Shown: one piece after another, positions 22,190 through 27,185 of the stretch
Position numbering within the stretch: position 1 is the first letter of the stretch
Layout: each line of letters starts with the position of its first letter
Source of the DNA: Verrucomicrobiia bacterium
Lineage (GTDB): Bacteria > Verrucomicrobiota > Verrucomicrobiia > Palsa-1439
Assembly (NCBI GenBank): GCA_022072455.1
Contig: JAJVHY010000012.1
Span: 124,001-188,000 of the forward strand
Length of the DNA: 64,000 bases
Reading direction: 5' to 3'
Made by a program: the position numbers and the translations under genes
Notes under the pieces: generated by a model
Seen by the model: the letters and a program-made list of their open reading frames with translations, nothing else
What the model was told of the DNA's origin: nothing
Databases searched by the model: none

Positions 22190-22479
22190 ACCGCGCGCCC
22201 AGTTGGGGAATCACAACAATCACCCCGGCCGCGCCGGTGCCCGCCGGTGCCTGGTGTACGTTGCGGTTTCGGTTCCGGTGCGGGCAGCCGATTGACGAAA
22301 CCGGCGGACTCGCCAAGGAAATCCAGGTCTGCCGGCTGCCGGACCGCCTCCGCCAGCACGACTTCGACTGCGCGCTGCCGATCGGGAAATTGCAACGCGG
22401 CGACAACCCCATCCATGTTCGGGTGACCCAGGAGGACGGTCACCTGAGCTGGAGCAGCCCAATTTATCTGGTGAAATGA
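22186..22479 (+). pseudogene. C-terminal fragment of a DUF3604/PHP-like protein
   Basis: This 97-codon frame begins at an ATG overlapping the previous stop. It encodes no N-terminal domain of any known family. Its ending, NPIHVRVTQEDGHLSWSSPIYL, is typical of the last beta-sheet segment of DUF3604 metal-dependent hydrolases (..VRV.Q.DG..AWSSPI). The 5' part of such a gene, normally 500 or more codons, is missing. It is most simply the downstream half of a deletion scar with the MBL-fold remnant. It may still be translated as a small protein. Confidence 0.5.
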
Positions 22480-23645
22480 ACCTTCCCCGCATCCTAATTC
22501 TGCTGATTGGAGTCTGCACCATGTCTGACGCACAAGAAACGAACCGCCAAGAAACCAATCGCCCGTTGCGCGTCTGGGCGTTTGGCGACGCCCATGTCGG
22601 CACCGACGCGCGCAAACGGCGCGAGAGCCTCGCCGACGCGCTGCGGCAGAGCGAAGCCGGCTTCGAGTGGGACATCGCCATTGATGTCGGCGACAACTCC
22701 GGCGGCCAGGCCGTGCCCGATGACGCCGAAGGCCGGGAGATCGTCCGGCAGTTTGGCGTCTTGAAGAAACATCGCCGCGAACAGATTTACAACATTTGCG
22801 GCAACCACGACCGCGGCGGGCTGGACGAACCCGCCGCCTGGTGGTTTCAGAAGTGGATTGACCCGATCGGCGAGCACACACCGCACTCGGGCGTGGACCC
22901 GGCCCGACGGCCGTACCCGATCACCGGCACGTGGGAACGCTATTCGTTTCGCGTCGGCAATCTGTTGTTCCTGATGATGAGCGACATCAATGAGCCGACC
23001 CAGAAAATCGGCCGCGGCCCGCTTGGCGGCAACCCAGGCGGCGTGGTCAGCGCCGAGACCTTCGAGTGGTGGCAGCAGATGGTGACGGGAAACCCCGAGG
23101 CGATCATCATCACGGTTCATCATTATTTGCTGAAAGACACCACCACCGCCACTGGTGAGTGGGAAGGCATGGTCAAGGACGCGCGCGGCAACTGGAAAAG
23201 CGGCTATCACGGCCACAAACCGCAGGGCACACCGCAAGGCGCGTCGTATCTGTACTGGGTCGGCAGCGTGCCGGACGCGCAGGCGTTCGAGAAGTTCCTC
23301 GCGGCCCGACAACCCGCTGACGCTCCGGCTGGCAGCAATGTCATCACCTTGTGGCTCGGCGGGCACACGCACCCGCGCACTCCCGACGATACGCACGGCG
23401 GCAAATCACTGATTGCCACGAAGTGGGGCGTGCACTTCCTGAATGTCTGCCCGCTGACTCAGCATCACATCAACCCGAGTCATCCCACCACCCCGTTGAG
23501 CCGGTTGTTGACCTTCACGCCCGGCAGCGACGAAGTGCGCGTGCAATGCTGGCTGCACACCGCCGAATTCGCTCCGCGCGGCTGGCATGCGCCCGCCGAG
23601 CGGCGGTTGAAACTGCCGCGCCCCTTCCACTGGGAGCAACCATAA
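22476..23645 (+). CDS. Secreted or lipid-free metallophosphoesterase
   Basis: A 389-residue calcineurin-like phosphoesterase. The metal-binding signature is complete: WAFGDAH (37-40), DVGDNS (70-75), ICGNHD (108-112), TVHHYLL near 210 and LGGHTHPR near 293. The first 19 residues (NLPRILILLIGVCTMSDAQ) look like a signal peptide. The start overlaps the previous stop by ATGA. Members of this family hydrolyse phosphomono- or diesters; this one is a single-domain version. Its place between sulfatase and amidase genes suggests action on a decorated glycan or glycolipid, but no substrate evidence exists. Confidence 0.85.
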   Translation: MNLPRILILLIGVCTMSDAQETNRQETNRPLRVWAFGDAHVGTDARKRRESLADALRQSEAGFEWDIAIDVGDNSGGQAVPDDAEGREIVRQFGVLKKHRREQIYNICGNHDRGGLDEPAAWWFQKWIDPIGEHTPHSGVDPARRPYPITGTWERYSFRVGNLLFLMMSDINEPTQKIGRGPLGGNPGGVVSAETFEWWQQMVTGNPEAIIITVHHYLLKDTTTATGEWEGMVKDARGNWKSGYHGHKPQGTPQGASYLYWVGSVPDAQAFEKFLAARQPADAPAGSNVITLWLGGHTHPRTPDDTHGGKSLIATKWGVHFLNVCPLTQHHINPSHPTTPLSRLLTFTPGSDEVRVQCWLHTAEFAPRGWHAPAERRLKLPRPFHWEQP

Positions 23646-25045
23646 GCGATCGCCCCAACATCGTCCTGATCATGACCGACCAGCAGCGCGGCGATTGTTT
23701 GTCCGCCGACGGTCACCCGGTGTTGCTGACGCCGAACATGGACAGCCTCGGTTTTCAGGGCACACGCTTTCGTCGCGCGTATTCGACCTGCCCGGTTTGC
23801 ATCCCGGCCCGGCGCAGTCTGCTCAGTGGCCAGTTCCCGCGCACGCACGGGCTGGTCGGGTATCAGGACGGCCTCGCGTGGGACGCGCCGACGACGTTGC
23901 CGGCCGCGCTGGCGGCGGCGGGTTACGAAACGGCCTTGGTCGGACGCAGCATGCATCAGTGGCCGGCCCGGCAACGGCACGGCTATCAAACGATGGTCAT
24001 CCACGGCGCAGATTACGACGAGTTTCTACGCCGCAACAGCCCGCTGGAAAATCCCCAATGGTTCGGCGGCGGCGTGCTGCACAACGACTGGACCGCCCGC
24101 CCGTGGCATCTGGACGAATCGTTGCACATGACGAATTGGACGGTGGACGAAGCGTTGCGGTTTCTGCGCCGGCGCGATCCCACCTGTCCATTTTTCCTGA
24201 CGGTCTCCTTCATCGCGCCGCACCCGCCGTTGCAGCCGCCGGCGTTTTATCTCGACCGCTATCTGCGCACCGGCGTGCCGGACCCGGTGGTAGGCGACTG
24301 GGCCGGTGCCCCGCCGGGGCCGGCTGACTACACCCACGCGGATTACGTCGCCCCCTTGCACGTGCGGCTCGAAGGCGAGGCGTTGCGCAGTTGTCGGGCG
24401 GCCTACTACGGGCTGATCAATCACGTGGACGATCAAATCCGCCGGTTGCTCAGCCCGGACGGCGGGCCGGCGGCGGTGGTCGGCGATAACACGCTGATCG
24501 TGTTCACCTCCGACCACGGCGAGATGCTGGGCGATCATTATCGCTGGCGCAAGGGCCTCGCCTACGAACCATCGGCACGCGTGCCGTTGCTCATCCGCCC
24601 CCCGCGCCGCAGCGGCTGGCCCCGCGGCCAGGTGGTGGATCAGCCCGTCTGCCTCGAAGACCTCATGCCCACGTTGCTCGACCTGGCTGGCGTGCCGATT
24701 CCGACAACCGTTGAGGGACGCAGCCTGGCACCGTTGCTGCGTGGCGAACAACCGGCCTGGCGCGATTATCTGCACCTCGAATGCGCGCCGCAGTTCCACG
24801 CGTTGACCGATGGCCGCGAGAAATACGTCTGGCTGCCCACCACGGGTGAGGAACAATTTTTCGATCTCCGCGACGACCCACAAGAATTGCGCAATCTCAC
24901 CGGCTACCCCGACCGTGTCGCCCCGTGGCGCGCCCGGCTGGTGCGCGAGTTGCGCGAGCGCTCCGAAGGGTTCACTGACGGACGGCAACTGATCGCCGGC
25001 CGCCCCTACCCCGCCCTGCTGCCCCATGGAGGACGGCCATGCTGA
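23642..25045 (+). CDS. Sulfatase, type I, apparent ATA start codon
   Basis: The sulfatase homology begins exactly at codon 23642: (I/M)SDRPNIVLIMTDQQRGD, with the formylglycine signature CIPAR at 53-57 and FTSDHGEMLGDHY near 290. The codon in the start position is ATA, overlapping the previous TAA stop by 4 bases. All other junctions here use ATGA, so one G-to-A change at 23644 would have altered both codons. The frame is open upstream to a GTG at 23351, but that stretch is antisense-style sequence inside the phosphoesterase gene. Total length is 467 residues, normal for the family. No signal peptide. Confidence 0.85.
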   Translation: MSDRPNIVLIMTDQQRGDCLSADGHPVLLTPNMDSLGFQGTRFRRAYSTCPVCIPARRSLLSGQFPRTHGLVGYQDGLAWDAPTTLPAALAAAGYETALVGRSMHQWPARQRHGYQTMVIHGADYDEFLRRNSPLENPQWFGGGVLHNDWTARPWHLDESLHMTNWTVDEALRFLRRRDPTCPFFLTVSFIAPHPPLQPPAFYLDRYLRTGVPDPVVGDWAGAPPGPADYTHADYVAPLHVRLEGEALRSCRAAYYGLINHVDDQIRRLLSPDGGPAAVVGDNTLIVFTSDHGEMLGDHYRWRKGLAYEPSARVPLLIRPPRRSGWPRGQVVDQPVCLEDLMPTLLDLAGVPIPTTVEGRSLAPLLRGEQPAWRDYLHLECAPQFHALTDGREKYVWLPTTGEEQFFDLRDDPQELRNLTGYPDRVAPWRARLVRELRERSEGFTDGRQLIAGRPYPALLPHGGRPC

Positions 25046-26397
25046 GGGCGGCCTTTGGCAAACTCGCGTACACGCCGCCGCCCGGCACCCGGCTGGGCCG
25101 GCTCGGGGTCAACATCTTCATTGCCCAAGGGGTGCACTCGTCGTTGGAAGCGCGGGTGGCATTGTTTGATGATGGCCAGCAGCGGCTCGCGCTGGTCGCG
25201 TTGGACCAGGGATTCGTCTCGGCGGCAGTCACGGCGCGACTGCGCGCTGCGGTGCAAACGGGCGCCGCGGTGCCGCCCGCGCAGTGTCTGGTGTCCGTCA
25301 CCCACACCCACAACGCGCCGGCCTTGATGCCCTGGCGCGACGATGATCCGGGTTACGCGCAGGCCGACACGTTGGCGGAACAGTTGGTGGAACTCAGCCG
25401 GCAACTGGCGGCGCAACTGGCACCGGTGGAACTCCGGTTGAGCGAGACGACCGCCCCGGGTTGGGCGGAGAACCGTCGCTCGATCTACCGGCAGGCCGAC
25501 GGCCGGGAATGGGTGGCCACGCATGGCGACCGCGCAGCGCCGGGGTTTGTCCGCCCCGAAGGCCCGGACGAAACGGCGTTGCGCGCGTTGTGGGCGGTGC
25601 GCCCCGATGGCACGGTGGCTGGCGGACTGGTCAATTTCTGGTGCCACCCGACGACGCTGTACGACGAACCGGTTTGGTCGGCAGATTTTCCGGGCGTGGT
25701 GCGCGCCCGGTTGGAGCGGGAAGTGGGCGGGACGTTTGTGTATCTAACCGGCCCGTGTGGTGATCTGTCGCCCGCGCGCAATGAGTTGGCGTTCTGCGAG
25801 CCGATGGGGACGGCGTTGGCGGAAAAGTTACTTGCGGGACGCGCCACCGCGCGGCCTCTAGCCGCGGAGTCGGTGGGGGCCGCCAATGAGCGCCTGACGC
25901 TGGCGCAACGCATGGTGACGCCAGCCCAGGTGCGGGTGGCGCGCGAGTATCTGGCGGGAACCCGGCCGTCCGGCAGCGCGCCGTTGGTCGAGGTGCTGTA
26001 CGCCTGGCCATTTCATTTCGCAAGCCACACGGGTAACATAGACGACTGGATGGCGCAGGAGATTCTCGGGATGTGGGAGTGGCAGAAACGCGCCGCAGAG
26101 CCGGTGCTGCACGAAACGGTCGAGGTCCAGGCGCTGCGGGTGGGTGATCTGGTGCTCGCCACCATCCCCGGCGAGTTGTTCAGCGCGCTGGGGCACGCGA
26201 TCCTGGCCGACGCATCGAGCGGGGCGCGCTGGGTGGTCGAACTCGCCAATGGATATCACGGTTACCTGCCCACACCGGCGGCATTCGCGCACGGCGGATA
26301 TGAATGTTGTCTCGGCTATCAGAGCCGGCTGGAACCGAAGGCAGGTGAAAAGCTGGTGGCCGTGGCCCGGCGGTTGGCGACGAAACTCCGGCTATGA
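25039..26397 (+). CDS. Neutral/alkaline ceramidase-like hydrolase (paralog 2)
   Basis: A 452-residue relative of the protein at 5272-6534. It has GKLAYTPPPG at the N-terminus, SVTHTHNAP at 86-94 as the zinc-site motif and FWCHPTTLY near 205. TGPCGDLSPAR near 238 matches the GxxGD(xSP) block of ceramidases. It lacks a signal peptide. The ATG at 25039 overlaps the sulfatase stop by 7 bases. Presence of one paralog in each arm of the divergent locus suggests two related but distinct acyl or ester substrates. Confidence 0.8.
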   Translation: MLRAAFGKLAYTPPPGTRLGRLGVNIFIAQGVHSSLEARVALFDDGQQRLALVALDQGFVSAAVTARLRAAVQTGAAVPPAQCLVSVTHTHNAPALMPWRDDDPGYAQADTLAEQLVELSRQLAAQLAPVELRLSETTAPGWAENRRSIYRQADGREWVATHGDRAAPGFVRPEGPDETALRALWAVRPDGTVAGGLVNFWCHPTTLYDEPVWSADFPGVVRARLEREVGGTFVYLTGPCGDLSPARNELAFCEPMGTALAEKLLAGRATARPLAAESVGAANERLTLAQRMVTPAQVRVAREYLAGTRPSGSAPLVEVLYAWPFHFASHTGNIDDWMAQEILGMWEWQKRAAEPVLHETVEVQALRVGDLVLATIPGELFSALGHAILADASSGARWVVELANGYHGYLPTPAAFAHGGYECCLGYQSRLEPKAGEKLVAVARRLATKLRL

Positions 26398-27185
26398 ACC
26401 TGCCCGTCCATTACCTGGGACTGGCGGTGATCCTGTTTTTGTCGAACACGTTGTACGCGGCCGCCGGGTTCGGGTTTGGGTTGTTGTCCGTGCCGGTGTT
26501 GTTGCTGGCCGGCTGGCCGCCGTACCAAGCGGTGGCGATTTCCGCGACCTCCGTTATCGTCCACGGCAGTTTCAGTTTCTGGCGGACGCCGCCGCGGACA
26601 GCCGATGGTGCCCTCATGCGGCCGCCCGGCCGCGAGTTGCTCTGGTTGGTGGCGGCGGGCGTGGCGGGTCAGCCGGTCGGCGTCTGGTTGCTGAGTCGGC
26701 TGGCGGGCTGGAGCCGGGCCGAGATGACGCAGGTCTTTGGCGGCCTGTTGTTGGTTGTGTTGGCGGTGAAACTCTGGTGGCGGCCCCGGCCGCAACCCCG
26801 GCTCCACCCCGCGTGGGGACTGGGGACGCTGTTCAGCTCGGGGCTGATTTCCGGCATGAGCGGCATGGGCGGACCGCCGCTGGTGCTGTGGGCGATGGCG
26901 CATACCTGGTCGGCGGAACGGATCCGGGTCACGCTCTGGACGTTATTTTCGTTGTTGTCGGTGACCAATCTGTGTTGGCTGAGTTGGCGGTTCGGCGCGC
27001 CCGTGCGCGAGGCGATTGGGTTGGGTTTGCTGTTCGGGCCGGTGACGTTGCTGGGGGCGGCGCCGGGCAATTGGATTGCGCGGCGTTTGTCGCCCACCCA
27101 GTCGCGCCACGCGGTCACGGCCATTCTGCTGATCGTCGCCCTCTACGCCGTCAGTCAGCCAATCCTCTTGGGAACGGGGCGATGA
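26394..27185 (+). CDS. TauE/SafE (TSUP) family membrane exporter
   Basis: A 263-residue integral membrane protein with about eight hydrophobic segments and the two family repeats: YAAAGFGFGLLSVPVLLLAG in the first half and GLISGMSGMGGPPLVLWAM in the second. TSUP proteins move sulfite, sulfoacetate or other organosulfur anions across the inner membrane. In a locus with three sulfatases, disposal of a sulfur anion is plausible but unproven. It overlaps its neighbours by ATGA on both sides. Confidence 0.88.
   Translation: MNLPVHYLGLAVILFLSNTLYAAAGFGFGLLSVPVLLLAGWPPYQAVAISATSVIVHGSFSFWRTPPRTADGALMRPPGRELLWLVAAGVAGQPVGVWLLSRLAGWSRAEMTQVFGGLLLVVLAVKLWWRPRPQPRLHPAWGLGTLFSSGLISGMSGMGGPPLVLWAMAHTWSAERIRVTLWTLFSLLSVTNLCWLSWRFGAPVREAIGLGLLFGPVTLLGAAPGNWIARRLSPTQSRHAVTAILLIVALYAVSQPILLGTGR

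Follow-up and report, generated by a model that had tools for sequence, protein, structure and literature searches.

A candidate ATA start codon, or a one-base error, in the overlap of a phosphoesterase and a sulfatase gene of a Verrucomicrobiia bacterium

The closest described cases of AUA initiation come from S. aureus, for which one study reports AUA starts of infC, ccpN and citZ (PMC13009471). In poor medium, reporters with the AUA of ccpN or citZ reached about 10% of the yield from AUG; in rich medium, the ccpN reporter reached up to 30%. According to the same study, the unusual start of infC serves IF3 self-control in both S. aureus and E. coli (PMC13009471). For ATT, a level of about 0.3% in E. 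coli is cited from Hecht et al. in PMC10666635. A study of 61,358 ancestral AUG starts lists no switch from AUG to AUA, and its text makes no mention of AUA, so that a real switch would be rare within the reach of that study (PMC5622118). Initiation at AUA is thus possible, though weak and rare.

Co-directional genes sharing the four bases ATGA, with a Shine-Dalgarno (SD)-like sequence inside the upstream gene, are described as termination-reinitiation overlaps in two sources (PMC6728339; PMC10666635). We analyzed a junction of the same arrangement in a 64,000-nucleotide stretch of a Verrucomicrobiia bacterium genome (GCA_022072455.1, contig JAJVHY010000012.1, positions 124,001 to 188,000; hereafter the window), in which an ATA start and a TAA stop take the place of ATG and TGA. 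A literature search on AUAA or ATAA overlaps with coupling found nothing. Like the three S. aureus genes, the sulfatase in the window has an AUA at the expected start with an SD sequence before it. In contrast to the S. aureus starts, which rest on ribosome profiling and, for ccpN and citZ, also on reporters, the start in the window is predicted from sequence; infC and ccpN of S. aureus have an extended SD sequence, whereas that in the window is moderate; and the ccpN start is common to S. aureus and B. subtilis, whereas the single homologous junction found for ours carries ATG (PMC13009471).

The phosphoesterase–sulfatase junction

The sequence-only reading of the window had described a sulfatase gene opening with ATA, overlapping the TAA stop of a phosphoesterase gene by four bases. 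This description is right in detail: positions 23642–23645 read ATAA, the ATA opens the sulfatase frame, and the TAA at 23643–23645 closes the phosphoesterase in the list of open reading frames. The flanks are ...CTGGGAGCAACC on the 5' side and GCGATCGCCCC... on the 3' side, and the two frames differ by -1 at the junction. Counting ATAA as a four-base overlap of stop and start presupposes that ATA is the start. From 23642, the sulfatase frame translates as ISDRPNIVLIMTDQQ... / ISDRPNIVLIMTDQQRGD... over 467 residues to a TGA stop (25043–25045), and the N-terminus predicted for this start is (M)SDRPNIVLIMTDQQR. We agree with the same reading that a G at 23644 would give an ordinary ATGA overlap. 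Its statement that ATGA is found at almost all neighbouring junctions was too strong: of the window's 26 close co-directional junctions, 10 have ATG at -4 and 2 have GTG there.

Table 1. Features at the junction, in window coordinates.
Feature	Position	Strand	Basis
Calcineurin-like metallophosphoesterase gene	22476..23645	+	Open reading frame; PF00149; C-terminus aligns with that of L034
In-frame upstream ATG, rejected start	23546..23548	+	Coding score; nearer starts in relatives
GGGAG, Shine-Dalgarno-like, 5 bases 5' of ATA	23632..23636	+	Sequence; duplex calculation
Inferred sulfatase start ATA, inside 4-base overlap	23642..23644	+	Start place in relatives; ATGA in L034
Type I (formylglycine) sulfatase / arylsulfatase gene, 467 residues	23642..25045	+	PF00884; NF010322; CxPxR
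In-frame internal ATG (M11), rejected start	23672..23674	+	Conserved residues lost; no SD sequence

The match of the upstream gene to Pfam PF00149 is weak (22.9 bits, cut-off 21.5). The downstream gene exceeds the curated cut-offs of Pfam PF00884 (160.8 bits against 25) and of the arylsulfatase family NF010322 (PRK13759; 507.8 bits against 481), and its best match among solved structures is the choline-sulfatase 7oz8 (E 8.6e-97). The motif CxPxR, the formylglycine motif, occurs as C53-I-P-A-R57, where C53, A56 and R57 belong to columns at least 95% conserved among the sulfatase relatives. Judged by domain and motif, the downstream gene is a type I (formylglycine) sulfatase, which, start codon aside, shows no difference in kind from NF010322 or 7oz8.

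Phosphoesterase, sulfatase, a neutral-ceramidase-like protein (sub-threshold match) and a TauE/SafE permease follow one another in a row at 22476–27185 of the window. A ceramidase-like gene also lies near the sulfatase in L038, L046, L055, L057 and L059 and near the phosphoesterase in L182; the phosphoesterase, the sulfatase and the ceramidase-like protein may work together. At the 3' end of the sulfatase gene, its stop and the ATG of the next gene share seven bases (ATGCTGA, 25039–25045) rather than four.

Position of the sulfatase start

From 235 related loci found in public genomes, we compared the sulfatase with the best 80 (44–68% identical). The start was readable in 79 of these, several having short upstream sequence and one (L094) too little, and the nearest canonical codon is not necessarily the true start in each relative. 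With that reservation, the nearest ATG, GTG or TTG stands no more than 12 residues ahead of the conserved PN (of "RPNI") in 74 of the 79; the distance is 5 residues in 29 of them and 4 residues in 12, the latter being the spacing of the ATA in the window. At the alignment column of the ATA, L114, a paralogue from this genome, carries ATG. The residues that follow are conserved (R4 in 66/78, P5 in 78/80 and N6 in 73/80 relatives; residues 7–10 hydrophobic in all 80), and the protein shows no deviation across the 84 columns with conservation of at least 95%. The gene therefore looks intact and translated from at or just before R4; decay of the sulfatase was rejected on the same grounds. Translation should, on this comparison, begin at or just before 23642, and this start place is well supported by homology; according to the relatives and the coding scores, it is the ATA codon that falls there, and no canonical codon fits.

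Canonical codons do exist in the frame, which is open further upstream: ATG at 23546, GTG at 23423 and GTG at 23351, with the next downstream ATG at 23672. Translation of a correctly read sequence from one of these is an unlikely alternative. The five relatives in which no canonical start lies so close to PN (L038, L040, L044, L051 and L067) suggest that longer N-termini may occur in some relatives. The stretch 23546–23641, however, scores -9.2 as coding sequence in the sulfatase frame against +1.9 in that of the phosphoesterase, and 23351–23545 scores -27.9 in the sulfatase frame. The ATG at 23546, which would add 32 residues, was further rejected for its weak SD duplex (-3.0 kcal/mol) and for the nearer canonical start of the 74 relatives, and the ATG at 23672 because it would strip conserved residues 4–10 and has no SD sequence (duplex -0.7 in one calculation and +0.7 in another). 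As for the relatives themselves, the nearest in-frame ATG, GTG or TTG lies more than 30 residues before PN in L038, L040 and L044, which may have longer N-termini or unusual starts.

The homologous junction and ATA starts within the genome

Among the best 80 sulfatase loci, only L034 (record: Planctomycetota bacterium, LacPavin) has the phosphoesterase in front of the sulfatase within the sequence examined, the two proteins being 65% and 67% identical, respectively, to those of the window. Its junction is ATGA, an exact four-base overlap in the same frame relation and with a normal ATG. The phosphoesterases end in AERVLTLPRAFEAPRP (L034) and AERRLKLPRPFHWEQP (window), each followed by the stop codon; between AER and the stop they are equally long, and the stops occupy homologous positions. 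The L034 sulfatase begins MTERSTANRPN, with five residues more before RPN than in the window. The comparison of orthologous junctions proposed by the sequence-only reading thus yielded a single homologous pair, whose ATGA suggests an earlier ATG form; together with the start place in the orthologues, it lends support to that reading's choice between a rare natural initiation codon and a base error at one position. From this one comparison, the junction likely passed from ATGA to ATAA by a single G-to-A change, and the non-canonical start is not kept in the one relative that has the junction.

A search with the phosphoesterase (E ≤1e-40) covered 384 genomes at class level and 387 at phylum level, two overlapping sets with 5 matching genomes each, including this one. 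No sulfatase stands behind the phosphoesterase in seven other loci, within about 1.5 kb or less of flank; in L149, a distant sulfatase (27%) lies in front of it. Six of these seven phosphoesterases end within a few residues of the junction point, the exception (L150) running on into different sequence. These endings speak against a -1 frameshift that fuses phosphoesterase to sulfatase, as does the identical frame relation of L034 with its normal ATG. Even though the -1 relation of the frames would fit such a fusion, the region 23601–23660 holds no slippery heptamer of the form X XXY YYZ, and we consider a frameshift extremely improbable. The junction shows no remarkable predicted RNA structure, with a z of 0.48 and 134 of 200 shuffled sequences folding as well or better.

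Within the genome, a sample of 464 kb (the window and 400 kb more), with genes called by a simple codon model, contains 165 close co-directional pairs. Canonical starts stand at -4 in 68 of them (50 ATGA, 14 GTGA and 4 TTGA) and between -13 and +20 in 69 more, leaving 28, which we judged by eye. Among these 28, an in-frame ATAA occurs only at the window junction, and one other pair has an in-frame ATAG, but with an ATG 12 bases 5' of its ATA; two further in-frame ATAA occur in pairs of the sample with a canonical start close by. No second case like the window junction was thus seen in the 165 pairs. ATA is also rare as a codon (92 of the 124,012 in genes of the sample), and from these two observations ATA starts are no habit of this genome, for this sample and method; widespread use of ATA starts was rejected accordingly. 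The placement of the ATA is beyond chance, a rare codon standing where the relatives start and at the place of the L034 ATGA. A second screen, of 307 genes, looked for the lack of a canonical start close to where coding begins and flagged 6; this screen is blind to cases of the window type, where an ATG follows 30 bases downstream.

The GGGAG before the ATA is computed to pair with the anti-SD sequence at -6.5 kcal/mol with a 5-base spacer, and the 16S tail GGATCACCTCCTTTC, the usual anti-SD, is present in the genome. This duplex is at least as strong as those computed for 41 of the 50 ATG, 9 of the 14 GTG and 3 of the 4 TTG starts that the sample has at -4. An equally strong one occurs at 98 of 1035 random in-gene positions, about one in ten, and an SD sequence is expected under the base-error hypothesis too; both count against taking it as a sign of a real ATA start.

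The infC gene, whose unusual start serves IF3 self-control, offers a comparison in the same lineage. In this genome (L151:1237-1270; G000:C27), infC has no ATG near the conserved start; GGAGGT is followed after 7 bases by an ATT (1252–1254) and after 1 base by a TTG, and the gene appears, from this arrangement, to start at ATT. Of 27 infC loci fetched, 15 were readable by a motif pattern and 12 were left out. The codon 5 or 6 before the motif in the 15 is ATT in nine, ATC in one, ATA in one and none of these in four. Within the family, the 8 readable genomes, this one included, have ATT in seven and ATC in one (L164); the ATA belongs to L166, of the same class and another family, and stands behind CAGGAGGT. 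An ATG or TTG is also found 7–12 codons before the motif in 4 of the 11 AUH loci (L156, L159, L164 and L166). The infC start of this genome and family thus resembles the sulfatase ATA as an AUH codon behind an SD sequence; unlike infC, the sulfatase shows no sign of IF3 regulation. That the AUA is a fixed, natural feature of the overlap, a codon that free initiation would mostly refuse but reinitiation by the terminating ribosome tolerates, setting a low ratio of sulfatase to phosphoesterase and placing the sulfatase under IF3 control, seems improbable to us.

A real base or an assembly error

The explanation that we put first, at a little under an even chance, is that the sulfatase starts at 23642, that the ancestral junction was a normal overlap of stop and start, ATGA, and that the base is real. 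A G-to-A transition at 23644 would have changed the start from ATG to ATA and, at once, the stop from TGA to TAA. A ribosome terminating the phosphoesterase at TAA and held by the GGGAG just upstream would then reinitiate at the AUA with the initiator tRNA (fMet), with a yield below that of AUG. The start place by homology, the ATGA of L034, the SD-like sequence and the intact gene are the computed parts of this explanation; we infer the direction of change (from one comparison), the reality of the base and reinitiation at AUA. The ATG of the single homologous junction and the lone occurrence among 165 pairs tell against a real ATA.

The same two observations are what one would expect from a consensus error, or a minority-strain base, in a draft assembly whose true base is G and whose junction is the standard ATGA; we give this account a substantial chance, somewhat short of even. 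The assembly is a 36-contig draft with completeness at 95.57 and contamination at 2.14, and the sample holds another isolated oddity, an in-frame TAA inside a gene on the minus strand at G000:C1:87793-87795. If that TAA were an error, one such event in the 124,012 codons sampled, about 372 kb of coding DNA, would correspond, very roughly, to one wrong base in 20,000, and at that rate an error would be about as likely as a real ATA start. On the other hand, the sulfatase gene is otherwise intact, and the number of ATG-to-ATA errors expected in a few hundred genes would be well below one. Real base and consensus error therefore stand at nearly equal odds. The TAA itself (L136:7793-7795) reads ...APQQTQV, stop, IYSAYDKEHLYFAI... 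in an otherwise continuous frame, and may be a nonsense change, an assembly error or the mark of a decayed gene.

If the ATA is real, the sulfatase would be one more bacterial gene with an AUA start, a further case of a known phenomenon, and its junction an overlap where reinitiation might relax the choice of start codon. A gene caller restricted to ATG, GTG and TTG would then misplace the sulfatase start by at least 32 residues early or by 10 late. If the base is an error, the case shows that single wrong bases in a draft genome can be recognized by comparing junctions.
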